A stretch of DNA of 34,041 nucleotides from a virus, in IMG/VR virus record IMGVR_UViG_3300020166_000063, positions 1 through 34,041 of that record; one strand, written 5' to 3'. Below are positions 6,912 through 28,233 of the stretch, piece after piece. The translations under genes and the position numbers were made by a program. Within the stretch, counting starts at the first letter, position 1. Every line of letters begins with the position of its first letter. Under the pieces are notes generated by a model, which saw only the letters and a program-made list of their open reading frames with translations, was not told the origin of the DNA and searched no databases.

Positions 6912-9900
6912 ATGCCAAACTGGAAAAAACTCATAGTTAGCGGGTCTGATGCTAACTTAAATTCGATTGTAGTCAACTCAACTGGTTCTTTTGGAACTCA
7001 AGTTAGGATAGGGACAGACACCTATACAGGAGGATCCTTAATAGTATCTCAAGGTTCTACAAACCAAAGAGTCGCAAGACTCGGTAATATAGAAGTAGTT
7101 AACAATGCTACCGGTGGAACCTGGACAGGGCAAGCAATACATGCAGAAGGTTCAAACAGAACCCTTAGATTCACAGCAGGTGGATCTTTAAATGCATCTG
7201 ATACATCAGCACATAAATTTAAAGGCTACTTAAATTCTTCAAGAACTGTAGATTATAGTACATTTAATGTAAATGGAGGATATAATCAAAATACATTAGC
7301 CGCTGATTATAGCTATATTAAGATAGACGGATCTGTAAACCAAACAGGAACATCCCAATCAGGGTCAATAACAGGTATTGATTATAACCCAAGTCTTATT
7401 AACGCTTCATCCGCAACCCACTATGCTTTTCGTGCTAGATCGGGAAATATTGTATTAGATTCAGGTAGCGTTGGTATCGGGACTACTGATCCAGCAGAGA
7501 AGTTACACGTTTATAATGCAGGTAATTCGTTTATAAAAATTGACTCTGACGCTACATCTCCATATATGGCTGGAGTTGAGTTTGTAAGAAGTTCAATTAA
7601 TGGAGGTCGTATTTACAATGACGGTGGAGCGGTTCAAGTAAAGCTAGAAAGTTACTTTGGGTATGATTCAGTAAACCCAACACGTGGAGGCTTTATGTTT
7701 AAGACAGCCCCGGTAACTTCAGGAACTTTAGTTGATGCTGTTAGAATAGATGCTAGAGGCTATGTAGGTATTGGAACTGCTACTCCAAGCGAAAAACTTG
7801 AAGTTAACGGAAATATAAGCGGTAGCGGTGACTTATACTTAGGAGGAGATAACTTTTACCTTGGAGGTAGTGAAACAAGAATTAGAACATATTCTAGCTA
7901 CTTAGGATTTTTTGCATCTGGAGGATCTGCTAAAAACATTAAAGTAGGAGGATTAGGAGTTACTAATGATTTCTCAGATAGCTTCCCTACAAATGGAATA
8001 TACTCAAAAGGAGATATAGTAACAAGCGGATCAGTTACAATACATACAGTAGATAATGCAACATCTGATACAGATAAATTTTTAGTTTCAGATGCAGGCA
8101 CTGTAAAATATAGATCAGGCTCTCAAGTACTAGCTGATATAGGAGGAATATCATCTGCTGATATATCTGATATGGTAACCAAGAGTACTAATCAGACAAT
8201 AACTGGAGCAAAAACATTTTCTAATAAAATAACACTAGACGACGGATCCGGAGCAAGCCCAGAAATAGATTTTATAAACGGCGATAATCAGAAATTTACA
8301 GTAAGCGCTGGTGATAATAACCGTACACTTAATATAACCCATGAAAGTAACGGCGGCAACGATGTATCGATAATATCTACTCAGAATGACTTTAGAGACG
8401 CTGTAATAAAAGTAGGAGGAACTTCTACTTACGGTAAAAATATACAACTATCAGGTTCTTTCACATTTCTACCACAAGCACAAACTGGTAGTATACGGAC
8501 AACTTCAAACCAAACGTTAGAACTAGTACCCAACGGAACCGGAACAGTAAACATAGGAGATACTTCTAACGGAACAGTAATGTATCACTACTCTCAGGAA
8601 AACGATGGAGTGCATACATATAGAACTCACGGAGGTGATTATTCTTCAACATATACAACCGCTGCATCAGGATCTAGATTCTTTCAAGATCTTACAAGTA
8701 ACGGTAATATCTATGCTCGTGGCTTTTCTGGAGTAAATATAGGACAGGGAAGTAATAATAGTAGGTACGGACTTTGGGGTTACCCACACGGAACAGGAGC
8801 AGGAGACGGAAACCTTTATATGGCACCTAGAAATATAAATTCTTCAAACGGATCATTTATAAAATTAGGACAAAGAGACTCAGATGTAGCAGCAGATAAG
8901 GGAACAGTTGTAATAACTGCTGGAGATCCAACCTACCATAGTATGACAGGTGATATAGTATTCAACTATAGTTCATCTAGAGTAATGAAATTAGAGGGAG
9001 ATACTGGATACGTCGGAATGGGTGTTAATGGTCCTTTAGCACCTCTACACATATCAGGTGGTGCAGAATGGAGAACGCTTTACTTAGAAGCTCAAAACCC
9101 AGCTGTGTACTTTAAAGATTCGGGCTCTGTACCGGGATACCATGTTGGATTAAACAGCGACCACCTCTATGTACTTAGAGATAGCGACGGTAACGGAGAC
9201 TATAATAACATATTAGCCCACTTTAATTCATCTGAGTTCAAAGTATACGGAGATCAGACAGTAGCAGGAAACTTAACAGTGGATGGCACCGTAACAGCAC
9301 AGGAATTTCACACTGAATTTGTATCTTCTAGTATAATATACGAATCAGGTTCAACTAAGTTTGGAGATACAGCAGACGATAAACATAACTTTACAGGTTC
9401 ATTAATTGTAAATAACGCAGCCTCTAATACTAATAGTATATTTAAAGGTATAAGGTCAAGTACGTACTACTTTGACTTAGGGCAGTATGCTGATATAGAC
9501 CATAGAGTTAACGGTTCAGTCTTTGCAAACACAATTAGAAATACATCTACTACACAAACTACACCAGTGCTTAGACTTGGACACAGTAACGATGGAGCAC
9601 ATATTACAACATACGATACTAATGAAGATTTAATAATAAATCCTAACGGCTCAGGAGATGTAAAGTTAATTGGGAATACAGAAGTTACAGGATCAATTGA
9701 TTCAAGTGGTGATATTAGATCCGAAAGAGATTTAGAAGTAGGATATAATAACGCCAATTACGACCAACAATTAATACTACATAACGGTCTTAATAAAAAT
9801 TACATTTTTACATCAAATTCAGCATCCATAAGCAATGCTCAATTAACAATTCAAGGAGGTAATTACACACATGCCGTTAATTTTAAAGATTCATATTCTA

Positions 9901-12900
9901 ATCAAGACAATTATGCAACGTTATCAGGAGGATACACAGGAGATTCTAAATTAATACTATTTAACTCTTCTTCCCAATTAACAACAACAATAAGTACAGC
10001 AACTTCATCACTTAACCATACAGATGTATATGGGAATATAAGATTTACTGGCACCACTGCTAATACTATAAACTCTATAGTAAATTTAACATTAAATGCA
10101 GACAGTGATTCAAACAGTGGAGACGGGTATAGAAATATAATATTTAAAAATAGAGGAACAGAGACAGCTAGAATAGATCAAGACGGTAAATTAGGTCTAG
10201 GAACAGATAGCCCAGAAGCTAAGTTAGAAATTGTAGATGCAACACCTACATTAATACTAAGAGATAACCGTAACTTAAATGTTGGAGCTTGGGACAATGT
10301 AGCAATGAGCAGAATACAGTTTAGCACATCAGATACTACATCACCAGGAGCAAGAGCTTTAACAGAGATTGAAACATATAGTGGCACTGGAGCAGCATCA
10401 GGCCCTGAAGGAGAATTAAGATTCAAGACTTCTGAAATTACTGATGCATCTCCCCAAACTAGAATGACTATTTCTGCAGAAGGTTATGTAGGTATAGGAA
10501 CTGCTCCTTACACAGGACTAACAGTAGCAGGAAATATAACTACCTCTGCTAACTCATACATAATATCAACAAGGAAACTTGCAGCTCGAGACGGAAACGG
10601 ACTCCAAGTAGTAAATGATGGAGGAGAGGGTATTAATGTAAACGATGATAATAGTGTAACACTTACAAACTACGGATCAGGTACACACACAGGTACATTA
10701 GCAAAATCATTAGGTGTTGATTCTTCAGGTAATATTATAGAAACAGTACCTACTGCTGGAGGTATAGACGGAACAGGTATATCTCAATCACTAGCAATAT
10801 GGTCAGATACAGATACTGTAACAGCAACTAGCAACCTTAAGTACCTTAGCAACAAGGTAAGACTTAGTAATGCCGGATACGATACATTAGAATTAATAAG
10901 CTCAGTAGCAGAACACAGTTCCATGAAATTCCTTTCCGGCTCTGTAGGCTTAGGTAGAATTGGATGGCACAACTCAGGATACCATTTCCCAGGATCAAAT
11001 TCACAAGCGTTGATGCTATTGGGTAACAAAGGTATTAACTTCGGTATACCGTCAACAGGGTCTATTTCAATAATGTCAGGATCAGCTGATGTAATTATGG
11101 CGCTAAGCTCTAGTGTAGGTATAGGAAAAACACCAGTCTATAAATTAGATGTTAACGGCATAATAAGATCAGGAGATGCATCAGCAACATCAAACTATGT
11201 TTTAGTTGAAGGCGCAGACAATAATGATACATACACAGTATTTAAAGGTAAACGTAAATACCCAAGAATAGATCTTACAGATACTTATGGCGCCACTGAT
11301 ACCACCTTTCAGATTTGGAATTTAGGAGGTCAATTAAGGTTCGGAACCTCAGCAGGAGGATCAAATACTGCCGCTTTCTTTATTAACGGAAGTGGAGCAG
11401 CACCCGTTACATTTAATACATCTGTAGGGATAGGTCACCACAGTTTAACTGGCACAAGCTACAAACTACACCTATCATCTTCTAATGCTAATCATATAAG
11501 ATTAGAAAGAGACAACCACGATTCATATAGAATTGCATTATCCCACTCTGCAGGATTAGGTTTTTATAATTTAACTGACTCTAGGGATGAATTAAGATTT
11601 AGAGGAAATGGAGATATACTAATACCTAGTGGAGCATTAGGAATCGGTAACACTACACCAACACATAAATTACACATAGTAGATGGAACTGATAGTTTAA
11701 AGTATGGAGCAGATATAGGTAATGGTTTCGATGGAATAAAACTTACCGGAGGAGCTCCAGGAATAGAGTTTGTAGGAAACGGAGATGACTTTATAGTAGG
11801 TAAGATTACCGCAGGATTAGCATTCTTTAATAGCACTGACTCTAACTATAAAATGATTCTTGATGATGATGGTAATCTTGGTATTGGTACAGGAACATCT
11901 GCTATTTCTGAAAAACTAGAAGTTACGGGTAACGTTAAAGCAACTAGGGTAATATCAGATACTATAAGAGATACTAATAATAATGGACACTTGGTTACTG
12001 CTGTTACGAATGCTTCTAACACTACAACAATTGTAGGTAATGCAGCTACAGCGAACACATTAACCTTAGGTGTTAAAGATACAGGTGTTGTAACTACCCA
12101 AGGAAGCGTAGGAATCGGGACTACTAATCCGGATTCTTTATTACATGTCTCAGCAGATGTAACTGGAGCAAATACAGGCACAATAACAATAGAGGGTAGA
12201 CCTACTGGTTTCTTAGGTGATGACATAGCAACAATTGATTTTCATAATAACGGTAGTAAACGTGCTGATATTAGAATGGAAAGAGGTAACGCTGCTGATG
12301 ATTCTCAACTTGTTTTTTCTACATCTGATACGGGAACTCTTAATGATGCTTTAATAATAAACGAAATAGGTAACGTCGGAATAGGAACACCAAATCCAGA
12401 TAGTTTATTACAGTTATATAAAGCAACAGGTAATACGACATTAAAAATTACATCAAACCAAGAAAACGCTTACCTTTACATTGACTCTAATCAAGACGGA
12501 GCTGGAGGAGAAGAAAGTGGTATAATTCTTGCAGACAATGGTACTGCAAAATGGGAACTATTTAAAACAAGTGGTAACGATTATTCAATCCACGATTATA
12601 CACGTGGTGCTTCTTCATTTAAGATACAAGATAATGGAAATATGTTCCTTATGGCCAACGGAGGAAATGTTGGTATAGGAACAGAAACATTAAGCACTGT
12701 TGGAGGTAATGCTAAACTAACTATAAGTGCTGGAAACAGTCCTGTTTCAATAGTTAACGGTACCAATGATGGAATGTACCTTAGAAGATTTGACGATGAA
12801 GATGGGCATTATCAATTACAAACAACTGTAGGTAGTGGCAATTCAGGAACATTATCATTACAGACTTACGGAGGAGATTTAGGAGTTGGAACAAGAACAC

Positions 12901-13691
12901 CATCTAGTAAATTTCAAATATCTGGAGGTAATACAAGCACCGCAGCAGATGCATTATTCTCGATTCAAAAGAACGAAGAGGGTTATGGTTTATTTGCTGG
13001 TATTTTAGGATCCGGAACATCATGGCTTCAATCTTCTACAAAAACACAATCTGCATACTATGGATTAACACTACAACCTAATGGAGGAAATGTAGGAGTT
13101 GGAACTACTTCAACCCCTCAAAAATTAACAGTTCAAGGAAACATTCAATTAAACCATACATCTGGAAACTCTCAGTCAAGCTACGATTTACGATTTAACG
13201 CAACTAATTCATCTGGACAGAGTCAAATAAAAGCAGCAATGTATGCTGCACCATATGGTAATAATACTAACGGAGGGAACTTTGTACTAAAAACAGCAAA
13301 TACAGGTACTACGTTAATTGAAAGATTTAGTATCAATGCTATTGGAGCAGCAAGATTTAACCAGTACGGATCAGGAACACATACAGGAACAGCTACTAAA
13401 ACTCTTCAAGTTGATACTAACGGAAATGTAGTAGAAAGTAATATAGTAAAATTTGCACCAAAAGTTGAGTATTCCGCATTAGCTGCTGATTTAGCAGAAA
13501 ACGCCGTTGTAACATTACCAAACTCGCTAACATATACAATATCATCAGGAGGATATGAATACCTAGAAATCTTCTTAGATGGAATTAGACTAAATAGAAC
13601 AATAGACTTTGAAGAAGTAACAACAACTACTATTAGAGTACTAATGAATATTCCACAAGGATCAGTTTTAACTTATAAATCTATATCATAA
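6912..13691 (+). CDS. Giant tail fibre / adhesin with GNVGIGT-type repeats
   Basis: A 2259-residue protein, beta-rich throughout, with few Cys and no catalytic signature I can see. The N-terminal MPNWKKLIVSGSDANLNSIV matches the 375-residue fibre. The body has about 14 copies of the phrase G(N/S/Y)VGIGT(x)xPxxKLxV near residues 184, 282, 698, 1090, 1190, 1399, 1502, 1573, 1653, 1730, 1819, 1917, 1987 and 2058. Between copies lie variable 70-400-residue stretches, probably distinct beta segments. A GTVTAQEFHTEFVSSSIIYE module (about 792-831) has a near-copy in the 1181-residue fibre. Two GSGTHTGT...K(S/T)LxVD modules lie near 1254 and 2151. The C-terminal domain (about 2190-2259) with EIFLDGIRLNRTIDFEEV resembles the C-terminal domain of the gp15-like protein. 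No endosialidase-type (S74) chaperone domain is present. It is most likely a long host-recognition fibre. Confidence 0.85.
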   Translation: MPNWKKLIVSGSDANLNSIVVNSTGSFGTQVRIGTDTYTGGSLIVSQGSTNQRVARLGNIEVVNNATGGTWTGQAIHAEGSNRTLRFTAGGSLNASDTSAHKFKGYLNSSRTVDYSTFNVNGGYNQNTLAADYSYIKIDGSVNQTGTSQSGSITGIDYNPSLINASSATHYAFRARSGNIVLDSGSVGIGTTDPAEKLHVYNAGNSFIKIDSDATSPYMAGVEFVRSSINGGRIYNDGGAVQVKLESYFGYDSVNPTRGGFMFKTAPVTSGTLVDAVRIDARGYVGIGTATPSEKLEVNGNISGSGDLYLGGDNFYLGGSETRIRTYSSYLGFFASGGSAKNIKVGGLGVTNDFSDSFPTNGIYSKGDIVTSGSVTIHTVDNATSDTDKFLVSDAGTVKYRSGSQVLADIGGISSADISDMVTKSTNQTITGAKTFSNKITLDDGSGASPEIDFINGDNQKFTVSAGDNNRTLNITHESNGGNDVSIISTQNDFRDAVIKVGGTSTYGKNIQLSGSFTFLPQAQTGSIRTTSNQTLELVPNGTGTVNIGDTSNGTVMYHYSQENDGVHTYRTHGGDYSSTYTTAASGSRFFQDLTSNGNIYARGFSGVNIGQGSNNSRYGLWGYPHGTGAGDGNLYMAPRNINSSNGSFIKLGQRDSDVAADKGTVVITAGDPTYHSMTGDIVFNYSSSRVMKLEGDTGYVGMGVNGPLAPLHISGGAEWRTLYLEAQNPAVYFKDSGSVPGYHVGLNSDHLYVLRDSDGNGDYNNILAHFNSSEFKVYGDQTVAGNLTVDGTVTAQEFHTEFVSSSIIYESGSTKFGDTADDKHNFTGSLIVNNAASNTNSIFKGIRSSTYYFDLGQYADIDHRVNGSVFANTIRNTSTTQTTPVLRLGHSNDGAHITTYDTNEDLIINPNGSGDVKLIGNTEVTGSIDSSGDIRSERDLEVGYNNANYDQQLILHNGLNKNYIFTSNSASISNAQLTIQGGNYTHAVNFKDSYSNQDNYATLSGGYTGDSKLILFNSSSQLTTTISTATSSLNHTDVYGNIRFTGTTANTINSIVNLTLNADSDSNSGDGYRNIIFKNRGTETARIDQDGKLGLGTDSPEAKLEIVDATPTLILRDNRNLNVGAWDNVAMSRIQFSTSDTTSPGARALTEIETYSGTGAASGPEGELRFKTSEITDASPQTRMTISAEGYVGIGTAPYTGLTVAGNITTSANSYIISTRKLAARDGNGLQVVNDGGEGINVNDDNSVTLTNYGSGTHTGTLAKSLGVDSSGNIIETVPTAGGIDGTGISQSLAIWSDTDTVTATSNLKYLSNKVRLSNAGYDTLELISSVAEHSSMKFLSGSVGLGRIGWHNSGYHFPGSNSQALMLLGNKGINFGIPSTGSISIMSGSADVIMALSSSVGIGKTPVYKLDVNGIIRSGDASATSNYVLVEGADNNDTYTVFKGKRKYPRIDLTDTYGATDTTFQIWNLGGQLRFGTSAGGSNTAAFFINGSGAAPVTFNTSVGIGHHSLTGTSYKLHLSSSNANHIRLERDNHDSYRIALSHSAGLGFYNLTDSRDELRFRGNGDILIPSGALGIGNTTPTHKLHIVDGTDSLKYGADIGNGFDGIKLTGGAPGIEFVGNGDDFIVGKITAGLAFFNSTDSNYKMILDDDGNLGIGTGTSAISEKLEVTGNVKATRVISDTIRDTNNNGHLVTAVTNASNTTTIVGNAATANTLTLGVKDTGVVTTQGSVGIGTTNPDSLLHVSADVTGANTGTITIEGRPTGFLGDDIATIDFHNNGSKRADIRMERGNAADDSQLVFSTSDTGTLNDALIINEIGNVGIGTPNPDSLLQLYKATGNTTLKITSNQENAYLYIDSNQDGAGGEESGIILADNGTAKWELFKTSGNDYSIHDYTRGASSFKIQDNGNMFLMANGGNVGIGTETLSTVGGNAKLTISAGNSPVSIVNGTNDGMYLRRFDDEDGHYQLQTTVGSGNSGTLSLQTYGGDLGVGTRTPSSKFQISGGNTSTAADALFSIQKNEEGYGLFAGILGSGTSWLQSSTKTQSAYYGLTLQPNGGNVGVGTTSTPQKLTVQGNIQLNHTSGNSQSSYDLRFNATNSSGQSQIKAAMYAAPYGNNTNGGNFVLKTANTGTTLIERFSINAIGAARFNQYGSGTHTGTATKTLQVDTNGNVVESNIVKFAPKVEYSALAADLAENAVVTLPNSLTYTISSGGYEYLEIFLDGIRLNRTIDFEEVTTTTIRVLMNIPQGSVLTYKSIS
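7463..13130 (+). repeat. GNVGIGT-type protein repeats (about 14 units) in the giant fibre
   Basis: Units start near 7463, 7758, 9005, 10183, 10483, 11109, 11417, 11632, 11871, 12101, 12370, 12662, 12874 and 13085. Each codes for a short G-x-(V/L)-G-(I/V)-G-T turn usually followed by P and a K-L-x-(V/I) strand. Spacing shrinks toward the C-terminus (about 70-100 residues from 11417 onward). DNA identity is local: copies at 7463, 12101 and the one at 21199 in another gene share ATCGGGACTACT. Confidence 0.85.
9285..9404 (+). repeat. Shared fibre module, copy A
   Basis: A 120-base in-frame segment coding GTVTAQEFHTEFVSSSIIYE and then SGSTKFGDTADD. It aligns without gaps to 18502-18621 in the 1181-residue fibre, with strongly similar DNA, implying duplication or module exchange between fibre genes. 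Confidence 0.85.
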
Positions 13692-13969
13692 TGATTAAAT
13701 ACATCTCAGAAAAACAACAAGCACTACAAATTATAATGGATAACTACAACGGATATACCATTGATTCAGTTAATAGCAATGTAACATTTAATGTAACAAT
13801 ATCTTATGATATAAGTGATATAGAAGAGAAAATAAATACCATAGAGACAGAATTAAATGTGTTAGAAAGTGAAGTTGAAAGGGAAAACGAAGAACTAAGT
13901 ATTAGTCAAATTCAAGATTTAAATGATTCTTTAGATATTTTAAAAGATCTTCTAATTAAATTAAACTAA
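13691..13969 (+). CDS. Small coiled-coil protein between giant fibre genes
   Basis: A 92-residue acidic protein. Residues 1-41 contain short strands (VTFNVTISYDI). Residues 42-92 look like a coiled coil, with IEEKINTIETELNVLESEVE followed by a second helix (LNDSLDILKDLLIKLN), and regularly spaced Ile/Leu. It starts at the A of the TAATG overlap with the 2259-residue fibre stop, so its output is tied to that fibre. Nine bases separate it from the next gene. A trimerisation helper, fibre cap or assembly chaperone would fit the position, but I do not recognise the family. No signal peptide or membrane helix is seen. Confidence 0.72.
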   Translation: MIKYISEKQQALQIIMDNYNGYTIDSVNSNVTFNVTISYDISDIEEKINTIETELNVLESEVERENEELSISQIQDLNDSLDILKDLLIKLN

Positions 13970-13978: not shown

Positions 13979-16900
13979 ATGGCAAGTATATACACAGTAA
14001 AAAACGCCGGAAAAAAACACTGGAATGACACTTCTGCGTGGGTAGGAGGAGTTGTACCTGGTGAAAACGATAGAGCGTATATTGAGACTGATTTTACCCG
14101 AATTAACTTTGGAAACGGCTATCTCCCATGGGAAGGTAAGAAATCAGAGATTAGAGTAGATACCACATCAGGATTCCCAGCTACTTCTGGTTCATTTTAT
14201 ACTTATGCTTACTTATCCCAAAACATAATTAAAATAGACTACGATACAATTAATGGAGATGACTACTTTAACTCATGTTCTATAGATAATAGCTTTAGAG
14301 AATGGTCTCCTTCTCAATCAGGTAGTGTTGATGACGATAAAGCGTACGGGTATATGAAGAATGATACCCCAGTATTTAGAACGGACCATACACATATATA
14401 CGTTTCTGGTTCCAGCACCTGGCATGTAGGTAGAATTTACGTTAGAGATCACGCAAAATTTACTGTAAAGGATACTGCAACTCTAGCATTAGATTCTGAT
14501 ACAGAAGATGCTTTTGTAGGAATAGCTGATGCATGTTTTGAAATGTTTGATCAATCAAATGCTATATTAACCGGCTCAACAGAAAGAAATAGTGGTTTAA
14601 TACATTTAGAAGACGATACATACTGCTCAGTTAATATATCAGGATCTTCGGATCTTAGAACTAGAACTACAGTTTCTACATTAGTTAACACAGGAAGCGG
14701 AATTATACCAGTAGCGAACGGAAGTAACTTTGAACCAGGAGATATTATATCAGTATACGGGAAACACGATGTAGAAGTTCAAGGAACCCACGGCATTAAT
14801 ACAAATTCGGACTATGAACCCTACTATTATACTACTACAGGATCAATTTACCCGTACTTCCATAACAACGTAGTTAAAGATGAAGACGAAACTTTTGAAG
14901 TTTGTTCAGTAAATGGAAACAACTTAGTAGTTAAAAAGAAGTTTACTCCCATAGGAACAGTAACACATACTCAAGGAGCAATCACAAGAAGAGTTTACCA
15001 AAAAGAACACGGTAGATCAAAAAGTAGATTCACAGGCACTAAAACATCAATAAGTGTTAGATCTGAAAATAATCAATACAAAACAGGAGACAAGGTAGCT
15101 ATTGGGAATAGTGTATATACAGTATTAGAAGTAGCAGATAAATTAATACCGTTCAAAACAGTAGACTTTGTAAATGGAGATAATCTAGACGATTTCTGGG
15201 TTGATGAATTTATCGGTTCAGGTTCTACTAATGAAATTAAATGTAACTCAGGTTTTATAACAGGTTCTACAGGATTACAGATGTCCGGTAGTTTAGTTGG
15301 CACATCTAACTACTATAAATCTCTTTATATGAAAGATATGAAACTAAGAGATTTAAAAGTTACACTAACATGTAGTCAGGTAGACGATAATGGATCTTGG
15401 AATGGTGATAGAATGGCAGGAGTAAGTATTTGTGAAGAACCTTACAATAGAGACAGGGTACTTTCATTCTACAATAGATACAGTTACGCAAGAGCATCCT
15501 ATATAGGGATATACTCAGATGATGTGTACTATGGGTCTAGACAAGACCAGTGGGGTAGATTAGACGGAGACGATTTAAATAATACTCCTAATATTAGCAC
15601 CGGTATGAGAGAAGGAGAAGTAACTGTAGAGATGAATGCTTTACGTGAGAATGTAGACTTTACCTATCAGGGTCAGTATTTAAACTCATCTACAATAAGC
15701 AGAAAAGCAGGTTCAGTAGCAATACACCTACGAAGAGAAGGTTCTAGTATAAAAAAACTAGTTGTTGAAGAATATGTTCAAGAGTTAGTACTGGATACAA
15801 CAGATTCTATAAGTGTAGACTCTAAAGTATATATAACAGGAACTGAGGTAATTCACCCAAGTGGGCAAGAAGTAGTAAAAATAGCATCAACGATAACAGA
15901 TATGAGAGGGTATGAAAATATACCATCTAAATTTGCAAAAGGAAAAGACTTAACAGACTGTGTAGTCCCGGTACTCTGGTCTAATAATGGTAACCAGAAT
16001 AGATATAGAACTAGCAGTACATCTTCGGATAGAGCTAGATTAGATAGTTTATTTTTAGATCATAACCACTACGATTATTACTTTAGACTAGATGCAACAA
16101 ACCAGTCCTTTATAGATTTAAACCTAGGTAAAGAAGTAGACCTAGACGCTGTTGGTTTAGCACATTTCTATAACCTACCAAGTCATTATCCCGGTACTTA
16201 CCCTAAAGGTATTGGTATAGAATACTCAACAGATGGACATACTTGGAATGTTGCAAGAGCACAGGCTGATGATACAAGATTAAGTAACCAAGGAGCAGAT
16301 TACCGAATATATCAATTTTCAGAAATTACTGCAAGATTTTTAAGAATTAAAGTTAATGGAGCAAATAATAACACTAATAATAGGATTGTAGCAATGGGGT
16401 TCTATAAATTTGACGGTAGAGGAAGTAGTATAGAACTAAATAATACATCAGATTTAGCAGTTGGTGACACTATTACATTTATGAATCCCCAAGCAGTAAG
16501 AGCTGGAGGGTATATAAACGCACATCATAGAAGCAATTACCGTTCAGCAGTTCTTGCAGGTACTAAGACCGCAAGTGATTACCCAGGAGGACTTACATTA
16601 AACTACACCATTACAGCTAAAACAGGTAATGTTATCACATTAGACAGACTTATAGAGGGGTATGAAATACACCCTGATACATTAGTAATAAAATTAGATA
16701 GAGGAATAACAGTAAAAAGTCAAGCAGGCATTAGCAACTGTATACCTTTTGGAGGATTCTACTCTGATAGTAGTTCTAATCCCTGTTATTTTAATATTGA
16801 AAATGCTTCATTTTTATCCCTAGGTTCAAATAGTAGAGAGAGAATGTACTTTTATAGACACCCTTATGTAGGTAGATTTAATATTTCTAATAGCAGTTTC

Positions 16901-18088
16901 TACTACATAGAACCAGGTTCACCGTACTTTAATAACTCAGGGATGGTTCGTAAAAATAACGCATGGATAAACACCTCTACTTTTAGTAATAGAGGTTCTA
17001 GAATGCACAGTGACCAAAAAGTACATGGCGAAATTAATACCAGTACTAATTACCAATTTAAAAACGTACACTCAACAAGTGACTATTATACAGGTAATAT
17101 AGTTGATGCAGGAAGGTATATGTATATTAATAGCCACTCAACACCATATGAAGGAGGTAGTAATAGATTAGTTATAAGAAACAACTACTGGACATTCCAA
17201 GATTATGTAAATCATCAATTAGGAGACGCGCACGGTAGAGAGACAGCACCTAAGAATAGCACACATATATACGATAATGTTGAAAGGCAAGGAGCAGGTT
17301 ATAGAAGATACTATAACGATTACTACGGAATTCATTCTAATCCAAACAATAAAATAGAGGGTAGTAAATATTACCCCTTTACTGCCCCGAACGGATTCAG
17401 ATGGTATACAGAATCAAATATAATAGACTACCAAGCTATGGGGACGGATTATCATGAAATGAGTCCAATTATAGGTAAGGATTACTTTTCTAATAGAAAC
17501 TTTTTAACGGATAACGGTAGAAGATTTATAATACAAAATAAAGATAAAAAGAACCAATACGATATGGTTAACATCTCTTTAAATAGAGCAGCACCACTGT
17601 TAATGTCAGCTAACTTTTCAGTACATGAAGAACAAGAGATAAGAGTACAGCAAAAAATGACATATAAAACACCATTTGGACAATATTATGACAACTACTT
17701 AGGCTCCACAACCAGTACAAATAAAGATATAAAAGGAGTACTACTATACCAAGATAGAACAGTATCTATACAAGGAGCCCCGATATCATTAACTTTTACT
17801 GATTTTACCTTCGATCATTCGTTTACAGCCCAACCAGGTAACTATTTATATATGCTATTAAATAGAAATAGAGCATATTGTCAAACTCTATTTACTTACA
17901 AAGATATGAGCTTTAACGTAACAGGAAATACACCAAACAAGATTTATATATCTCAGAACCTATTCAAAGAGCATAAAATACTACGTAGACCAGACAAAAT
18001 AGCATTAGCGGATTATTCAGGTAAACAAAAGGTACCTAAAAAATTAGCTACTAGAACAACAGTTAAATTAAGAAAATTTAAGTTTTAA
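13979..18088 (+). CDS. Giant mosaic adhesin with G8-like, discoidin-like and beta-helix-like regions
   Basis: A 1369-residue protein with a different architecture from its neighbours. Residues 14-36 (HWNDTSAWVGGVVPGENDRA) resemble the start of G8 domains (W-x-D-x-x-x-W-x-G-G-x-x-P-x-x-x-D). Residues about 245-390 contain FEPGDIISVYG and KTGDKVAIGNSVYTVLEV strands. Residues about 395-610 look like a jelly-roll sugar-binding fold. Residues about 645-812 resemble a discoidin (F5/8 type C) domain: SFIDLNLGKEVDLDAVGL, GIEYSTDGHTWNV and ARFLRIKVNG. Residues 814-920 read LNNTSDLAVGDTITFMNP, VITLDRLIEGYEIHPDTLVI and LDRGITVKSQAGI, the order seen after G8 domains in PKHD1/CEMIP/TMEM2-type proteins. 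Residues about 920-1240 look like a right-handed beta-helix. The C-terminus is basic (RTTVKLRKFKF). A glycan-binding or glycan-cleaving tailspike is plausible; no catalytic residues can be assigned by eye. Confidence 0.75.
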   Translation: MASIYTVKNAGKKHWNDTSAWVGGVVPGENDRAYIETDFTRINFGNGYLPWEGKKSEIRVDTTSGFPATSGSFYTYAYLSQNIIKIDYDTINGDDYFNSCSIDNSFREWSPSQSGSVDDDKAYGYMKNDTPVFRTDHTHIYVSGSSTWHVGRIYVRDHAKFTVKDTATLALDSDTEDAFVGIADACFEMFDQSNAILTGSTERNSGLIHLEDDTYCSVNISGSSDLRTRTTVSTLVNTGSGIIPVANGSNFEPGDIISVYGKHDVEVQGTHGINTNSDYEPYYYTTTGSIYPYFHNNVVKDEDETFEVCSVNGNNLVVKKKFTPIGTVTHTQGAITRRVYQKEHGRSKSRFTGTKTSISVRSENNQYKTGDKVAIGNSVYTVLEVADKLIPFKTVDFVNGDNLDDFWVDEFIGSGSTNEIKCNSGFITGSTGLQMSGSLVGTSNYYKSLYMKDMKLRDLKVTLTCSQVDDNGSWNGDRMAGVSICEEPYNRDRVLSFYNRYSYARASYIGIYSDDVYYGSRQDQWGRLDGDDLNNTPNISTGMREGEVTVEMNALRENVDFTYQGQYLNSSTISRKAGSVAIHLRREGSSIKKLVVEEYVQELVLDTTDSISVDSKVYITGTEVIHPSGQEVVKIASTITDMRGYENIPSKFAKGKDLTDCVVPVLWSNNGNQNRYRTSSTSSDRARLDSLFLDHNHYDYYFRLDATNQSFIDLNLGKEVDLDAVGLAHFYNLPSHYPGTYPKGIGIEYSTDGHTWNVARAQADDTRLSNQGADYRIYQFSEITARFLRIKVNGANNNTNNRIVAMGFYKFDGRGSSIELNNTSDLAVGDTITFMNPQAVRAGGYINAHHRSNYRSAVLAGTKTASDYPGGLTLNYTITAKTGNVITLDRLIEGYEIHPDTLVIKLDRGITVKSQAGISNCIPFGGFYSDSSSNPCYFNIENASFLSLGSNSRERMYFYRHPYVGRFNISNSSFYYIEPGSPYFNNSGMVRKNNAWINTSTFSNRGSRMHSDQKVHGEINTSTNYQFKNVHSTSDYYTGNIVDAGRYMYINSHSTPYEGGSNRLVIRNNYWTFQDYVNHQLGDAHGRETAPKNSTHIYDNVERQGAGYRRYYNDYYGIHSNPNNKIEGSKYYPFTAPNGFRWYTESNIIDYQAMGTDYHEMSPIIGKDYFSNRNFLTDNGRRFIIQNKDKKNQYDMVNISLNRAAPLLMSANFSVHEEQEIRVQQKMTYKTPFGQYYDNYLGSTTSTNKDIKGVLLYQDRTVSIQGAPISLTFTDFTFDHSFTAQPGNYLYMLLNRNRAYCQTLFTYKDMSFNVTGNTPNKIYISQNLFKEHKILRRPDKIALADYSGKQKVPKKLATRTTVKLRKFKF
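17842..17853 (+). promoter_or_regulatory. TATTTAT motif inside the mosaic adhesin gene
   Basis: CTATTTATATAT at 17842-17853 equals the core and flank of the copy at 1932, but lies inside coding sequence (residues NYLYML), about 240 bases before the 1181-residue fibre gene. It could be an internal promoter for that gene, whose own three-base gap has no room for one, or a chance match in A/T-rich DNA. Confidence 0.2.
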
Positions 18089-18090: not shown

Positions 18091-21000
18091 ATGAAACAAA
18101 GAATATACAACGGACATCCATTAGAATTTTATGATGATTCTAATAATAAAAAAGCAGAAATTAAAATATCTGGATCTGATCTTATTCTTAACCCAGTAGA
18201 TTCTTCAGGTACAGTTATAATTGGAGAAGATGGAGCAATTAATGATATTGAAGTAGGAGCTGTAGGTACTGCAGTAGACTTTACTTTTTTAGGTGGAGGA
18301 ACAATTACGTCAAATGGTAGTACACTCGTACTAGGATCAGCAGGAGATACTGTAGATTTATCAAATACAACACTATCAGCAGTATCCGCATCTGAATTTA
18401 CAGGATCATATTTTGGTGATGGTTCAAACCTTTTAAACGTACCAATGGACTTAGCATCCTATACAGGTAATGTAGGAGTTACAGGATCATTAGTAGTAAC
18501 TGGAACTATAACCGCACAAGAATTTAATACAGAAATTGTATCAGCTAGTATTTTGTACGAATCAGGATCAACCAAATTTGGAGATACAGCAGATGATACT
18601 CACAACAGAACAGGAAGTCTACTATTAAGTGGTTCTCAAACTATAGACGGTAATTTTGAAGTATTTAAAAAAGGAACTGGGAGAACTGTAGGCGATCTAA
18701 AAGTTGATGCAGGAAGTAAGTACACTTATGTAGGTAGGTTAAGCTCAACATCAGGAGATGTAAGTAGTTTTAAAGTTAGAGATAGACTTGATAGAGCATA
18801 TTTTGATGTTAATACTGCAAGCAAATACATATCCTTTAACCCGGAAATTGGTAATATAACTATGCAGATAGCATCCGGTTACGGTTTTAAAATAAATACA
18901 GACCAATTTATAGTAAGCGCTTCAGGCAATGTAGGGATTGGAACAGCTAATCCAAGCTTTACATCAGGAGGAGGACTTCAAATATCTCACGCTACTCAAG
19001 CTAATGTAAGATTATCTGATACATCAAATGCTGCATACAATACAGACCTAGCAATGTCTAATGATGACTTTTTCCTAGTAAATAGGTCTTCTGCTGGACA
19101 TTTAAAATTTAGAGTTAATAGTAGTACAGAAGCTATTACTGTGTTACAAGATGGTAAAGTTGGTATAGGAACCCCAACACCAACAATTGCACTGCATGTT
19201 AGTAAATCATCAGGATTTAATATTAAAACAGAAAGAGCAATAGAAGATGGAGGAAGGAACGGTCATTCTCATTTCTATACCGCAGGAAACGCTCATATAT
19301 TTGGACGACCTTTGATACTGGAAAGTTCATTTAGATTAGCCCCCACCACTCCTTCAGGTACCACAAAGCATTACAGAATATTGAACGACTCAGAGATTCT
19401 TAAAGTAGCTTTAGAGGTAGGAGGTTCAACAACTGCAGATAACATACTTACAGTATCAGGTTCAAACGTAGGTATCGGAACAGCTAGTCCTAGTGAAAAA
19501 TTAGATGTTGCCGGTACAGCTAGGATGGACACAGGAATAACAGAAGGTATTCACTACGTAGGTACTAGTGTTGAACATTGGGGGGATGGAGGCACAGGAA
19601 TGCAGTTTCCTGCTAATGATACAATTTCTCTTAGAACAGATAGTTCAGATAGATTATACATAAATTCAACAGGCAACGTAGGGATTGGTATAACATCTCC
19701 AACATCAAAACTACATATTTACGATAATAATAATTCACCATCAGGTGACATTACAACTAGTAAAATTCTTAGTAACGGTAACGTTGCAGCAAATGGGAAC
19801 ACCCGAACTGGATTAGACGTAGAAACAAACAGAAGCGGTTGGTATAATGCAGATGCTACATCTGGTAATTTTAAAATTTCTAGCGATAACAGGATAGGAA
19901 ATTCCGACCTTATAGGTGTTAAATCACTTGCTACAGTAGATGTTGATAACGTTTACAGCGGAGTTGCTGCTGGTGGTTCTCTAACAGCACTATACGGTAA
20001 AGTTACCACAACACACACAACAGGTTCAGGCCCAGTATCTAAAGGGTATGGTTTAAAAATTGCTGCACCAGAGGTAGCTGCAAATTCAGAGATAGATACA
20101 TACTACGGCGCGTCAATAGAAGGTGGTTCTGTATCAGGAACATTAACCAATAAGTATGCTCTTGTAACTGCCGCTGATGCCGGAAACGTAGGTATTGGTA
20201 CTACCTCTCCAGACAGTAAACTTCACCTAGCAACCTCAGGTGGTACTACATTAACTATTCAAAATACAACAAACTCAGGTAATGCGTCTCTACACTTTAG
20301 AGATGAGGGGGATGTTAATCAGTACCAGATTTACTATGCTCTAGGAGCGAACAGAGCTTATAACCTTGTAAATGGTAATGGTCTTACGATATATTCTTCT
20401 CAAGCATCAGGAGAAATTGCCCGTTTTGGAACAAGCACAGGCTATACCGACTCATACTTTATAGGAGACGTAGGTATCGGAACTGATACTCCTACGACAA
20501 GACTACATATTAAAGACGTAGACAGCCCTTATCAAATAAGATTACAAAGCACAGGAACAGAAACTTGGAATCTAGGTATAGGTAAAACAGGTTACTACGA
20601 TAATACACTATTATTCCAGTATGGAGGAGTTGGTGATAAAATGGCTTTAACAAGCACTGGTAAATTAGGTGTAGGAGATCTTAATCCTACAGCTAGATTA
20701 GCGGTAGTTGATGATACTCAATTTTCCTCAGGACAAGCTTCTGTAGAGGTACTAAAATTACAAAGAAAAAATACCGGTGGGGATATAAAAGCTACAACAG
20801 AAGGACATATTTCAATGTGGGCTACTGATTCTAATAACAATACAGAATGGGGTAGGATTTCTTGGGTAAATGATAACGCAGCAGATGGTGGAAATGAAAC
20901 TGAAGGAGCAATGTCTTTCTGGACTAGTAGAGAAGGAACTCTTACTAGAGCGATGTACATTGATCACGACCAGCAAGTCGGTATTGGAACAGATAGTCCT

Positions 21001-21636
21001 GATGCTATTTTAGATATAGAAAACGCTAGCGGGGTTACTATTGACATAAATAGTTCTAGCGGAGATGGTCAGTTTAGATTCCAAGATAATGGAACAACAA
21101 AGTGGTCGATAGGAAGAGATAATACTCAGCAAAATTTTGTTTTCTCTAACTCTGCTGGCTTGGCTTCCGATGACGTACTAACCTTAGCTCATTCTACAGG
21201 CAACGTAGGTATCGGGACTACTACTCCAAGTGATAAGTTAGAGGTTGCTGGGAATGTAACCACACAAGGAGGTTTGACAGTTGGAGACTCAACCGCAGAT
21301 ACAGCTCAAATAGGACTTAAACATCTACTAGGATACTGTGAAAACACAGATGTTGATACAGGAACTGAAGACATTAAATCTCTAGCACTATCAACATACC
21401 AAGCAGTCTTTTTTGACTACGTAATAAAGAACGGTACTAACCTAAGAGCTGGTACATTAACAGCTGCTCACGACGGAACAAATATTAAATTTAATGAAGT
21501 ATCAACCGTAGATTTAGGTAACACGACAGATGTTAAGTTAAAGGTAGTAATAGATGGAAGTAATATGAAACTACAAGCCACAACATTAACAGATAACTGG
21601 ACAATAAAAGCAAATATTAGAGGTATAAAAGTTTAA
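18091..21636 (+). CDS. Long tail fibre / adhesin with GNVGIGT-type repeats
   Basis: An 1181-residue beta-rich fibre. The N-terminus MKQRIYNGHPLEFYDDSNNK differs from the NWKK fibres, so it may attach elsewhere. A GTITAQEFNTEIVSASILYE module (about 138-177) copies a segment of the 2259-residue fibre. About nine GNVGIGT-type repeats follow near residues 277, 355, 457, 528, 700, 792, 857, 962 and 1037. The C-terminal domain (about 1065-1181) reads GLKHLLGYCENTDVDTGTED, FFDYVIKNGTNLRAGTLTAA, HDGTNIKFNE and DNWTIKANIRGIKV, a fibre-tip domain I recall from other marine phage proteins. That makes the tip different from that of the 2259-residue fibre although the shafts are related. It starts two bases after the previous stop in TTTAAATATG context with no Shine-Dalgarno. 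Confidence 0.85.
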   Translation: MKQRIYNGHPLEFYDDSNNKKAEIKISGSDLILNPVDSSGTVIIGEDGAINDIEVGAVGTAVDFTFLGGGTITSNGSTLVLGSAGDTVDLSNTTLSAVSASEFTGSYFGDGSNLLNVPMDLASYTGNVGVTGSLVVTGTITAQEFNTEIVSASILYESGSTKFGDTADDTHNRTGSLLLSGSQTIDGNFEVFKKGTGRTVGDLKVDAGSKYTYVGRLSSTSGDVSSFKVRDRLDRAYFDVNTASKYISFNPEIGNITMQIASGYGFKINTDQFIVSASGNVGIGTANPSFTSGGGLQISHATQANVRLSDTSNAAYNTDLAMSNDDFFLVNRSSAGHLKFRVNSSTEAITVLQDGKVGIGTPTPTIALHVSKSSGFNIKTERAIEDGGRNGHSHFYTAGNAHIFGRPLILESSFRLAPTTPSGTTKHYRILNDSEILKVALEVGGSTTADNILTVSGSNVGIGTASPSEKLDVAGTARMDTGITEGIHYVGTSVEHWGDGGTGMQFPANDTISLRTDSSDRLYINSTGNVGIGITSPTSKLHIYDNNNSPSGDITTSKILSNGNVAANGNTRTGLDVETNRSGWYNADATSGNFKISSDNRIGNSDLIGVKSLATVDVDNVYSGVAAGGSLTALYGKVTTTHTTGSGPVSKGYGLKIAAPEVAANSEIDTYYGASIEGGSVSGTLTNKYALVTAADAGNVGIGTTSPDSKLHLATSGGTTLTIQNTTNSGNASLHFRDEGDVNQYQIYYALGANRAYNLVNGNGLTIYSSQASGEIARFGTSTGYTDSYFIGDVGIGTDTPTTRLHIKDVDSPYQIRLQSTGTETWNLGIGKTGYYDNTLLFQYGGVGDKMALTSTGKLGVGDLNPTARLAVVDDTQFSSGQASVEVLKLQRKNTGGDIKATTEGHISMWATDSNNNTEWGRISWVNDNAADGGNETEGAMSFWTSREGTLTRAMYIDHDQQVGIGTDSPDAILDIENASGVTIDINSSSGDGQFRFQDNGTTKWSIGRDNTQQNFVFSNSAGLASDDVLTLAHSTGNVGIGTTTPSDKLEVAGNVTTQGGLTVGDSTADTAQIGLKHLLGYCENTDVDTGTEDIKSLALSTYQAVFFDYVIKNGTNLRAGTLTAAHDGTNIKFNEVSTVDLGNTTDVKLKVVIDGSNMKLQATTLTDNWTIKANIRGIKV
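18502..18621 (+). repeat. Shared fibre module, copy B
   Basis: A 120-base in-frame segment coding GTITAQEFNTEIVSASILYE and then SGSTKFGDTADD, the partner of 9285-9404. Similarity drops on both sides of the module, which suggests a discrete exchange unit. Confidence 0.85.
18919..21255 (+). repeat. GNVGIGT-type protein repeats (about 9 units) in the 1181-residue fibre
   Basis: Units start near 18919, 19153, 19459, 19672, 20188, 20464, 20659, 20974 and 21199. Most keep G-x-V-G-I-G-T followed by x-x-P-x-x-K-L. The last unit (TTTPSDKLEVAGNV) is the closest to a consensus. The repeats are of the same family as those in the 2259-residue fibre. Confidence 0.85.
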
Positions 21637-21646: not shown

Positions 21647-22399
21647 ATGGCGTTTTCAAGAGGACCAACAGTTATAAAAGATGGGATTGTATTCAGTATT
21701 GATCCAGCAAGTACAAAAAGCTACCCAGGAGCAACTAAGGTTAATGATCTTACTAGATACGGTGGTACTACACCAGAATTTACACCCGCTGGGACGCTAT
21801 CAGGAGGTACAACAGTAACTGTACCTACCACAGGGTCGACAACTAAAGTATTCGGTTTTGATGGGACTAACGATAGTTTACTTTTCCCAAATAATAACTC
21901 TGCTGCACCTCTACCCGTTAACTTTACATCATCAGCATTTTCAATAGAATCTTGGGTAAAACTCCAACAAACAGGTTCAAATAACATAGCAGTTATAGTC
22001 ACTAGAGGAAATCCATTATGTGATGGTTGCGACGGTGGATTTAATACCATGTTTACCAATAGTTCTACAATACAGGTAAGATTCGACGCAACAGGAGGAA
22101 GTAATATAGCAAGTGTTTCTTATAACTCTTCTTCATATGGGGTTAGAGATGATAAATTCCACCACATTGTAGGGTTAAGAGATGGAACAAATATCAAACT
22201 TTACCTAGACGGGGTAGAAGTAGCAACAAATAATAACGACAATAACGTAAACGTTAATGTAGAAGACCACGTATACATATCAGGATGGAGTTCATATAGA
22301 GGAGAAATGGAAGTAGGCCCAGTAAGGATATATAATAAAGCACTATCAGCTACTGAAGTAAGTATTAATTATAACGCTCAAAAACATAGATTTATATAA
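21647..22399 (+). CDS. LamG / concanavalin-A-like lectin-domain protein (array member 1)
   Basis: A 250-residue protein, the simplest member of a six-gene lectin array. The N-terminus (GPTVIKDGIVFSIDPASTKS) is the widespread phage form in which a GLV-x-x-x-D-x-x-x-x-K-S-Y-P-G phrase precedes a LamG domain; it lacks the GYDTGYP phrase of the other five. The LamG-like jelly roll spans about 65-250: FGFDGTNDSLLFP, FSIESWVKLQQTGSN, FHHIVGLRDGTNIKLYLDGV, and the closing VGPVRIYNKALSATEV, ending NAQKHRFI. Such folds usually bind sugars or proteins. A local CDGCDGG may be a loop with paired Cys. It starts ten bases after the 1181-residue fibre and its stop overlaps the next gene (TAATG). It is likely a virion-surface binding protein. 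Confidence 0.85.
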   Translation: MAFSRGPTVIKDGIVFSIDPASTKSYPGATKVNDLTRYGGTTPEFTPAGTLSGGTTVTVPTTGSTTKVFGFDGTNDSLLFPNNNSAAPLPVNFTSSAFSIESWVKLQQTGSNNIAVIVTRGNPLCDGCDGGFNTMFTNSSTIQVRFDATGGSNIASVSYNSSSYGVRDDKFHHIVGLRDGTNIKLYLDGVEVATNNNDNNVNVNVEDHVYISGWSSYRGEMEVGPVRIYNKALSATEVSINYNAQKHRFI

Positions 22400-23580
22400 T
22401 GAATACAGGACCGAAAATAGATACAGATGCTTTAGTGTTTGGATATGATACTGGATACCCACTAGTTTCTACAAGCAGTGATTCATATAAATTTAACCTA
22501 GGTGAGCCAACTACCAATAAGTTAGATGGTGATATACTAGGTACCGGAAACGGAGCAAGTTTAGACTCAGATGACTTTGGTACATACATACAGTTAGCAA
22601 ATATTACTTCCAGTTATTCTAGATTCCAACTACCCAGTATAACGGTAGTATCTAATGAAGTATACACCTGGTCATTTGAATTATATTCAACAGAAACTAT
22701 AACACAGAGTGGTAATAAGTACTACTTTGATACAAATGAATATTCTGATCAATTTTCAACTAGTAACGATTTATCAAGAGTAGGATTTACAAACATAAGA
22801 CCTTCTTCTATACCGGCAAATGAATGGACTAAGTTTAGTTTAACAGTTACTATGAAAGATAATTTAACTGGGGCCTATACATATGACTTCTTTAATATGC
22901 TATATCCTCATTTTCAAAATAAAAAAATATACTATAGAAATATGCAGTTTGAAACTAAACCGCATAATACACCCTATGCAGGACAGGGTATTACAAGGTC
23001 TGTAGAAAACTCATTAATTGATTTAAAAAGAAACACAACAATAAACGTATCAGATGTATCTTTTGATACTGATGCACAAATGTTTTTTGATGGTACTGAT
23101 GACCATATTACAATAAATAACCCCGGTATATCAATTGATAGGTTTACTATTGAAATGGTACTTAAACCAGATAGCTATTCAAATAGCCCAATGTTAATTA
23201 ACCCAAGTAGTACAGGTATTGATCAGTATGTAAGAATATGGAGTAATGGTCAAATTGGAGGTGTATTTGTAGCAGCAGCGGATACATCAGGAGATTCATG
23301 TAAAAGCACAACTCAATTAGACACAACAGAATACACACACTTTGTTCTAACAAAAACTCAAAGTGCAATAAAGGTGTATATAAATGGTGAACTAGAAACA
23401 ACCGTTACACCGACAGTAACCGCAGCACCCTGGACAGGAACTTGGGATATAGGACAAAGAGCAAATAATACTTTTAACTACGATGGTGAATTACCGATAT
23501 TAAAAGTGTATAAAAATGAGATGTCAGTAGAAACAGTAAAAAGTAATTTTAAAGGACTTAGAAGTAGGTTTAATATTTAG
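22399..23580 (+). CDS. LamG-like lectin-domain protein with GYDTGYP module (array member 2)
   Basis: A 393-residue protein in three parts. Residues 10-40 hold ALVFGYDTGYPLVSTSSDSY then FNLGEPTTN, the module shared by five array members. Residues about 60-195 form a CBM-like beta-sandwich ending IYYRNMQFETKPHNTPYAGQ. Residues about 215-393 form the LamG domain: AQMFFDGTDDHITIN, FTIEMVLKPDSYS, THFVLTKTQSAIKVYINGEL and GELPILKVYKNEMSVETV, ending RSRFNI. The middle part resembles carbohydrate-binding modules found in front of LamG domains in phage proteins. So two sugar-binding folds may lie in one chain. The start overlaps the stop of member 1 (TAATG). It is most similar to member 3. No catalytic motif is visible. 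Confidence 0.85.
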   Translation: MNTGPKIDTDALVFGYDTGYPLVSTSSDSYKFNLGEPTTNKLDGDILGTGNGASLDSDDFGTYIQLANITSSYSRFQLPSITVVSNEVYTWSFELYSTETITQSGNKYYFDTNEYSDQFSTSNDLSRVGFTNIRPSSIPANEWTKFSLTVTMKDNLTGAYTYDFFNMLYPHFQNKKIYYRNMQFETKPHNTPYAGQGITRSVENSLIDLKRNTTINVSDVSFDTDAQMFFDGTDDHITINNPGISIDRFTIEMVLKPDSYSNSPMLINPSSTGIDQYVRIWSNGQIGGVFVAAADTSGDSCKSTTQLDTTEYTHFVLTKTQSAIKVYINGELETTVTPTVTAAPWTGTWDIGQRANNTFNYDGELPILKVYKNEMSVETVKSNFKGLRSRFNI

Positions 23581-23590
23581 ATATTTATAT
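23581..23590 (+). promoter_or_regulatory. TATTTAT motif between lectin genes 2 and 3
   Basis: ATATTTATAT lies between the stop ending at 23580 and the ATG at 23594, preceded by G. The gap is only 13 bases, so a transcript from this point would have almost no leader. It may act as a promoter, or merely be the A/T-rich start context. Confidence 0.35.
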
Positions 23591-23593
23591 TAA

Positions 23594-24781
23594 ATGGGAA
23601 TAAATAGAGGAGCAAATATAGTTAGAGAAGGTCTTGTCTTTGGGTATGATACAGGTTATCCCCTAGTGTCGTCTAGTTTTGATTTATATAGATTTAACTT
23701 AGGTGAACCTACTACTAATCAAGCAAACACAGATACAAAAAGAACAATAGCTGGACACAGTGTTGGCGCCTACGGCCATGTAGTAGAGGTATCATCTGCA
23801 CCTGAAAAAGGAGTTGGATGGAAAAAGATTAATATTACAACACATGGAACTAATAATAGAATTGCACAATTTCCATACATTACCCATGTAGCTAACGCAA
23901 CTAACACCTATAGTGTTGAATATGATTTTAACACATTATCAGGGTATTACTGGAAATTAGACGGCTCAACCGGTACTCTAGGAAGTAATGTTAAAGACAC
24001 CGGGCACATACATTCACTAACACACACAAGAACAAGTAACGGAAGTCAAGCTTTATTTTTAATGAATAACAATGTCAATAGAGCATCAATAGACGATACT
24101 ATATACTTTAAAAATTATCAAGTTGAAACTAAACCACATAATTCACCTTTTACAGAAACCATAAGATCAACATCAGGTTCATTAATAGATATAACAAGAA
24201 CAACTGATATAGATTTATCTGATGTAACATTTGATAATAATGCACAAATGACTTTTGACGGTTCGGATGACTTTATAGAATTAGATGTAAACTTATCAGA
24301 TCTTGTAGGAACAGCCCCTACAGGAATAACTTTTGAATTTGTAGCAAAAGCAGATAACCTAACAAACCCAATAGGAATCAGCGGGGACTATACAGGTCCA
24401 GCAGGAACAGGATTTGGAATTAAAAGGTCTTCTTCTAATAATAAACTAGAATTTAGAGTTTACGCAACTGGTGGAATTCCAAGATCAACAACAGACATAC
24501 CCACAGATAGTTATTTTTACGGAGTTTGTATTTGGGATGGCACTAGCACAGGACAGCTTAGAATATACTTTAACGGAGTACTGGAAACAACAGACACTTC
24601 AGCAGGTACGACTTGGAACCATGGAAACGGTGATTTGAGAATAGGAGATAATTACGGAAGCATGGGTTCCCCTGGAGAATGGCAAGGAGAAATACCAGTA
24701 TATAGAATTTACGATAGAGCACTATCATCAGCAGAAGTAACACAGAACTTTAACACCTTAAAGGATAGATTTAACATATAA
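23594..24781 (+). CDS. LamG-like lectin-domain protein with GYDTGYP module (array member 3)
   Basis: A 395-residue protein. The N-terminus GLVFGYDTGYPLVSSSFDLY then FNLGEPTTN (about 14-41) is nearly identical to member 2. The middle (about 55-190) is a CBM-like sandwich whose sequence differs from member 2 but ends alike: IYFKNYQVETKPHNSPFTET. The LamG domain (about 205-395) has AQMTFDGSDDFIELDVNLSD, ITFEFVAKADNLT, YFYGVCIWDGTSTGQLRIYF and GEIPVYRIYDRALSSAEV, ending LKDRFNI. The conserved ends with a divergent middle suggest module swapping or fast change in the binding domain. Its stop overlaps the next ATG (TAATG). Confidence 0.85.
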   Translation: MGINRGANIVREGLVFGYDTGYPLVSSSFDLYRFNLGEPTTNQANTDTKRTIAGHSVGAYGHVVEVSSAPEKGVGWKKINITTHGTNNRIAQFPYITHVANATNTYSVEYDFNTLSGYYWKLDGSTGTLGSNVKDTGHIHSLTHTRTSNGSQALFLMNNNVNRASIDDTIYFKNYQVETKPHNSPFTETIRSTSGSLIDITRTTDIDLSDVTFDNNAQMTFDGSDDFIELDVNLSDLVGTAPTGITFEFVAKADNLTNPIGISGDYTGPAGTGFGIKRSSSNNKLEFRVYATGGIPRSTTDIPTDSYFYGVCIWDGTSTGQLRIYFNGVLETTDTSAGTTWNHGNGDLRIGDNYGSMGSPGEWQGEIPVYRIYDRALSSAEVTQNFNTLKDRFNI

Positions 24782-27854: not shown

Positions 27855-27869
27855 TATTTATAATTAAAA
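27854..27869 (+). promoter_or_regulatory. Candidate late-promoter motif upstream of the 114-residue gene
   Basis: ATATTTATAATTAAAA begins at the end of array member 5 and lies 26 bases before the ATG at 27880. It has the TATTTAT core and is followed by A-rich sequence without a Shine-Dalgarno. Confidence 0.42.
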
Positions 27870-27879
27870 CACAATAACA

Positions 27880-28224
27880 ATGAGTAGATTTCCAAACAGA
27901 CGCTGGTTAGTAGTACCAGCAACAGACATAGAAACTATAGATTTCAATCAGGTTTTAGAACATTCAGCGGAAGGTCTAAGATACTCTATAGATAACACAA
28001 AAACCTTTGTAAAGTACGAAGTTAATGAAATAACCGCATCATATTCAACAATAGGTATGGATGCTGAAACAGGAGAAGAAATTTCAATTTTACACGAAGC
28101 AGGTGTATACGGTAGACCGTCTTTTTATTTAGACAGTTACTCTGAATATACACATAGTGAGATACTAGCTTTACTGTCAACAGATGAATGGACTGATCAA
28201 GATGTATTAGATTCACCATCATAA
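27880..28224 (+). CDS. Small conserved-looking protein of unknown function inside the lectin array
   Basis: A 114-residue acidic protein unrelated to its neighbours. MSRFPNRRWLVVPATDIETI and IDFNQVLEHSAEGLRYSIDN lead into KTFVKYEVNEITASYST, and the C-terminus reads SEYTHSEILALLSTDEWTDQ. I recall similar short proteins (RRWLVxP, FNQVLE, TKTFVKYE, T-H-x-E-I-L-x-x-L) near fibre genes of other marine phages, with no known role. It is not beta-repeat rich and has no signal or membrane segment, so a chaperone or assembly factor for the adhesins is more attractive than a fibre component. It has its own candidate promoter and lies nine bases before the last lectin gene, probably sharing its transcript. 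Confidence 0.75.
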   Translation: MSRFPNRRWLVVPATDIETIDFNQVLEHSAEGLRYSIDNTKTFVKYEVNEITASYSTIGMDAETGEEISILHEAGVYGRPSFYLDSYSEYTHSEILALLSTDEWTDQDVLDSPS

Positions 28225-28233
28225 ATTAAATAT

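Follow-up and report, generated by a model that had tools for sequence, protein, structure and literature searches.

Background

The tailspike LKA1gp49 of Pseudomonas phage LKA1, a proven O-antigen lyase, is built from a beta-helix with a barrel insertion, together with a discoidin-like domain (PMC5701251). The rider of the K1 capsule lyase is a barrel that protrudes from the beta-helix and takes part in sugar binding (PMC8822698). In mouse TMEM2, one of the G8 proteins, the GG domain is essential for the cutting of hyaluronan, and His248 and Ala303 are critical for activity (PMC10276149). A literature search found no paper linking G8 and bacteriophage. Here we compare these systems with a protein encoded in a stretch of 34,041 nucleotides from a virus (IMG/VR record IMGVR_UViG_3300020166_000063), which as a whole is referred to below as the window. 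The protein represents a previously undescribed family, and with moderate confidence we favour the view that it is a tail protein, tailspike-like and glycan-binding, that may also act as a depolymerase.

The locus and its genome

The main gene is an intact ORF, and its coordinates and length were verified (Table 1). The phage is T4-like and uncultured, and the gene is part of its tail module. The major capsid protein encoded in this 34-kb virus record shares 69% identity with its counterpart in Flavobacterium phage vB_FspM_immuto; the virus is therefore a T4-like phage, and its host is probably a member of the Bacteroidota. The location of the main protein in the virion is deduced from gene order. 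A 90% identical copy of the main gene is found on two IMG/VR contigs, one of which is 167,696 bases long. From the N-terminus, the domains are a G8-like start, a first GD/rider-like module, a small beta domain, a middle domain and a discoidin domain, followed by a second GD/rider-like module, a variable region and a C-terminal region.

The two flanking fibres and the product of 29544-34040 are very long fibre-like proteins, two of the three made up of GNVGIGTxxP-type repeats. Downstream of the main gene, positions 21647-29487 encode a nearly uninterrupted row of six related proteins, of which five are Laminin_G_3 (ConA-like), and six Laminin_G_3-type matches are also present in a close relative (G001). 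A sister T4-like record (G025) has a different discoidin-type protein of 488 aa near its PhoH gene (L091, 1315-2781), which suggests that adhesins are exchanged in this part of the genome.

Table 1. Features of the main gene and its neighbours, with positions in the window; domain borders other than those of the discoidin domain are estimates
Feature	Residues	Position	Strand	Evidence
2259-aa tail fibre		6912..13691	+	C-terminal ~78 residues conserved; PHROG tail fibre
Acidic 92-aa protein		13691..13969	+	HMM with the window left out, E 9e-7
Main gene		13979..18088	+	1369 aa, multi-domain (order from family alignment)
G8-like start MASIYTVKNAG..W.D...WVGGVVP..ND	1-36	13979..14086	+	hhalign against phage G8 set
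Putative rest-of-G8 stretch with apparent insertion	37-193	14087..14557	+	family-conserved ...GSFY...IKIDY...SCSID...
Post-G8 segment and first GD/rider-like module (F-x-PGD-I-I-S-V ... E-V-x-S-V-NG-N-x-L-V-V-K)	194-345	14558..15013	+	hhalign, weak Rider matches
Small segment, putatively beta-barrel-like (YKTGDKVAIGNSVYTVLEV)	346-395	15014..15163	+	family alignment A9
Middle domain, poorly conserved	396-605	15164..15793	+	18.5% identity to distant homologues
Discoidin (F5/8 type C)	683-799	16025..16375	+	Pfam PF00754
Second GD/rider-like module, with VGDTI...ITLD...LDRGI	812-925	16412..16753	+	hhalign, family alignment
Probable beta-helix, least conserved part	926-1200	16754..17578	+	16-19% identity to distant homologues
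C-terminal region, conserved basic end (TTVKLRKFKF)	1201-1369	17579..18085	+	family alignment
1181-aa tail fibre		18091..21636	+	N-terminal ~112 residues conserved; PHROG tail fibre

Domain structure of the main protein

The initial annotation had described a discoidin-like domain, and this was borne out: F5_F8_type_C is the sole significant Pfam domain of the protein (37.2 bits against a cut-off of 28.2, E 3.7e-9). Across the family, at E<=1, this region matches PF00754 in six and PF22633 in seven of nine members. The best solved-structure match of the A9 family profile is 2w1q (E 0.0068), an entry titled hyaluronoglucosaminidase. From the length of its chain (192 residues) and the aligned range, this chain appears to be a CBM32-type carbohydrate-binding module and not the catalytic domain; the match is therefore no evidence for hyaluronan cutting.

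A G8-like start had also been proposed. The motif W15-x-D17-xxx-W21-x-GG-xx-P27-xxx-D31 is present, and the DNA pattern of this W/GG/P/D start had 0 matches in 100 shuffles of the window. Pfam G8 (PF10162) had no match at E<=10 in the whole protein, in its pieces or in a model search of the record, and it was listed at E<=1 in none of the nine aligned family members. Against a set of nine phage G8 proteins, the family profile of residues 1-36 gave an hhalign probability of 96.8% and a score of 71 (shuffles <=22), and residues 194-266 gave a probability of 96.9%, also well beyond the shuffles, in the same order along the chain as in the set; here and below, hhalign values are single comparisons whose weight rests on the shuffle controls. 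Residues 40-130 and 131-232 align to nothing, which leaves no recognizable G8 core (40-193) between the two matches. Since only these two segments match, we consider the N-terminus to be a diverged or interrupted G8-like module that does not count as a G8 domain under the curated test. The original proposal thus holds in part: the motif and a relation to phage G8 proteins are present, a Pfam G8 match is not. Another comparison, in which residues 40-130 were considered as the same insertion as in L094, L096 and L231, gave no support.

In a scan of IMG/VR for the DNA pattern of W-x-GGVVP-xxx-D there were at least 120 motif matches, at least 101 of them no later than residue 26 of an ORF; at least 12 matches presumably represent a chance motif in proteins that we take, from their sequence, to be recombinase-like. 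Among 47 phage N-terminal regions with this start, which include members of the main protein's own family, 13 match Pfam G8 at E<=0.1 (best 4.7e-6), and in a smaller set all six regions match at E<=1. With tblastn, residues 1-60 have a weak match (E 0.5) to Curvibacter phage PCA1, in which the 981-aa protein has a borderline G8 match. At the level of sequence, a remote connection of the N-terminus to G8 through such phage intermediates is supported. The occurrence of the same W-x-GGVVP start on at least about a hundred diverse phage proteins points to an N-terminal module that is widespread in phages and not to hyaluronan activity. Three phage proteins that share the start (L161, L169 and L172) also show a weak resemblance, over other short stretches, to the parts of the main protein that hold the GD modules.

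The VGDTI...ITLD...LDRGI order (about 828-914), which had been likened to the segment that follows G8 domains, is part of a real conserved module (812-925), now to be read as the second copy of residues 222-345. The two copies align with an hhalign probability of 91.6% (E 8e-7, score 43; <=17 in 100 shuffles). In the null for residues 810-930 one shuffle scored 132, which we treat as an artefact because 150 fresh shuffles scored <=19. With 34% identity to distant homologues, residues 812-925 are among the best conserved parts of the protein. The sequence of the duplicated module weakly resembles that of the beta-barrel known as the rider in K1 capsule-lyase tailspikes: the Pfam K1-lyase Rider matches L001, one of the related loci, at E 0.011 and 16.5 bits, below the cut-off of 27, and matches five of the 47 phage N-terminal regions (best E 4.2e-4), and a profile of phage N-terminal modules has a weak match to the K1 depolymerase 9k4a (E 0.019).

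The fold of the remaining parts is less clearly indicated. Pfam Beta_helix is matched in one of nine family members (E 6e-4). Neither the jelly roll that had been suggested for residues 395-610 nor the beta-helix (926-1200) could be confirmed: both were without a match in a profile search of solved structures, as was the main protein as a single sequence. AlphaFold models of residues 1-650 and 600-1369, made from a two-sequence alignment, had a mean pLDDT of 28 in both halves; structure prediction thus yielded nothing usable, and the models carry no weight.

A conserved four-gene cassette

The family is present in at least about 13 uncultured phages, and its complete members are 1309-1641 aa long and about 24% identical. 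A pattern scan and a follow-up search identified full-length distant homologues (L140/L220, L221/L222, L223, L225, L226/L179, L227 and L229) and partial homologues (L173, L224, L228 and L230); a distant homologue matches residues 1-909 of the main protein at E 1e-43. In all 15 loci (L001, L140, L173, L179 and L220-L230 included) an acidic ORF of 79-105 aa, in the relatives either a homologue or an equivalent ORF, directly precedes the main gene. In most loci with flanks the order is fibre, acidic protein of ~100 aa, G8/discoidin protein, fibre. An HMM of the small acidic protein, from which the window and its near copy were left out, has the 92-aa ORF as its only match among 20 ORFs of the window, and we infer that this protein probably has a dedicated role in assembly, as a chaperone or adaptor. 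HMMs from five relatives match only the window's two fibres, the upstream one at residues 2181-2258 (E 1.4e-23) and the downstream one at E 1.7e-30. The most divergent locus, L223, has large ORFs at both fibre places, and tblastn matched neither fibre there.

In relatives, head-completion and PhoH genes are found near the cassette, together with a gene that we take, from its sequence, to be sheath-like, and a T4-like major capsid protein is present in 8 of the 22 records searched. All four parts of the cassette are absent from the 40-kb stretch of Immutovirus immuto that was examined. Searches of cultured phages with the main protein and the homologues L140, L223 and L225 found nothing, and no relative turned up when bacterial and archaeal genomes were scanned twice. 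Unlike the near-identical G001, 47 other capsid-related records lack the family at the sensitivity used, and Pfam G8 was matched in 0 of the 48, G001 included.

Selection on the main gene and the fibres

In comparison with the 90% copy, the main gene has a dN/dS of 0.118, indicating purifying selection, while the flanking fibres have values of 0.363 and 0.398, about three times as high. Within the main gene dN/dS is highest (0.228) at residues 926-1080, inside the region that is least conserved in the family. The low value for the whole gene together with this peak marks the main gene as a constrained component with a variable face. As the main gene evolves more slowly than both flanking fibres, the fibres may carry most of the host specificity.

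Possible roles of the main protein

The analogy with LKA1gp49, the rider of the K1 lyase and the weak match to 9k4a lead us to favour the tailspike-like reading, with which the position of the cassette in a T4-like structural module and the variability of residues 926-1200, the highest in the family, are also consistent; against it, no catalytic residues were identified in the main protein. The earlier proposal of a tail protein that binds carbohydrate is well supported by the discoidin/CBM32-type domain, the position in the tail module, the conserved fibre neighbours and the module resembling that of K1 depolymerases, and because of these features we think that glycan binding on the tail is probable. 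Catalysis by the main protein is doubtful; the acidic polysaccharide of the initial annotation would be a possible substrate. An alternative role would be that of a non-enzymatic hub, a large structural protein that is part of the baseplate or connects fibres, with the discoidin domain keeping the particle near glycans and specificity and any cutting residing in the fibres or the laminin-G neighbours. The low dN/dS relative to both fibres, the place between two fibres that is fixed in most readable relatives and the short conserved basic C-terminus would all fit such a hub, but residues 926-1200 vary strongly across the family, as expected of a ligand-facing surface, and one would not usually expect a discoidin domain in a component that is wholly internal. 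We therefore regard this role as possible, though unlikely.

In this phage group the head genes are near the cassette, with the main gene downstream of the capsid and head-completion genes, and the corresponding stretch in Immutovirus precedes the tail sheath, which could indicate a head-attached adhesin (a capsid decoration fibre) instead of a tail part. This is improbable, as the neighbours match tail-fibre families and some relatives have the cassette first, then head-completion genes and then the sheath-like gene. We consider it very improbable that the protein is a CEMIP/TMEM2-like depolymerase of the hyaluronan type, in spite of the remote G8 relation of its N-terminus and although G8, GD segment and probable beta-helix follow one another in a similar way. 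The activity of TMEM2 and CEMIP needs the GG domain, and none is found among the Pfam matches at E<=10; Pfam G8 is likewise unmatched, and the start is widely shared by phage proteins. The link to PKHD1, CEMIP, TMEM2 and hyaluronan made in the initial annotation is accordingly unsupported.

In the tailspike-like reading that we prefer, the G8-like start would cap the N-terminal beta structure and may attach the protein to the virion. The discoidin domain, and probably also the middle domain, would bind a host surface glycan, as their family membership suggests, with the two GD/rider-like barrels flanking the discoidin part. The variable region, probably a beta-helix, would face the host polysaccharide and may cleave it. 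The acidic protein probably assists assembly, and the neighbouring fibres would complete the adhesion apparatus. The analysis thereby assigns a family of unannotated proteins from uncultured T4-like phages to host adsorption. It also adds a conserved adhesion cassette of four genes, among them one for a small partner that is likely dedicated, and corrects a tempting but unsupported connection to hyaluronan. Many phage proteins begin with a G8-like start, which opens the function of the G8 module to tests in phages. We speculate, very tentatively, that the start serves phage tail proteins in general as an N-terminal module for capping or for attachment to the virion, the same ancient module as in animal G8 proteins, which here heads a class of spikes with two riders and an internal discoidin domain that are always accompanied by their own acidic chaperone.

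Comparison with known systems

The N-terminal start and the post-G8 segment are common to the main protein, the PCA1 protein (UZZ64504.1, 981 aa) and IMG/VR relatives; beyond the start, the PCA1 protein has no long BLAST match to the main protein. With PKHD1, CEMIP and TMEM2 the main protein shares, through phage intermediates that match Pfam G8, the W-x-GG-VVP-xxx-D start and the post-G8 segment, but unlike them it has no Pfam G8 match, no recognizable core at 40-193 and no GG domain, and a discoidin domain has been added. That domain is of the F5/8 type C (discoidin/CBM32), over the Pfam cut-off, and is here embedded in a protein of a phage tail module. As in the Klebsiella phage K1 capsule lyase (K1-lyase_Rider, PDB 9k4a), a GD/rider-like segment adjoins a probable beta-helix, but the main protein has two copies of the module, and the matches are either below the Pfam cut-off or at E 0.019. 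The closest proven analogue of the main protein is LKA1gp49. The main protein is much longer, its start is G8-like, no lyase residues were identified in it, and its discoidin domain is internal, between two GD/rider-like modules; like LKA1gp49, it would be a phage protein for adsorption in which a barrel insertion and a discoidin-like domain accompany a beta-helix, here a predicted one.
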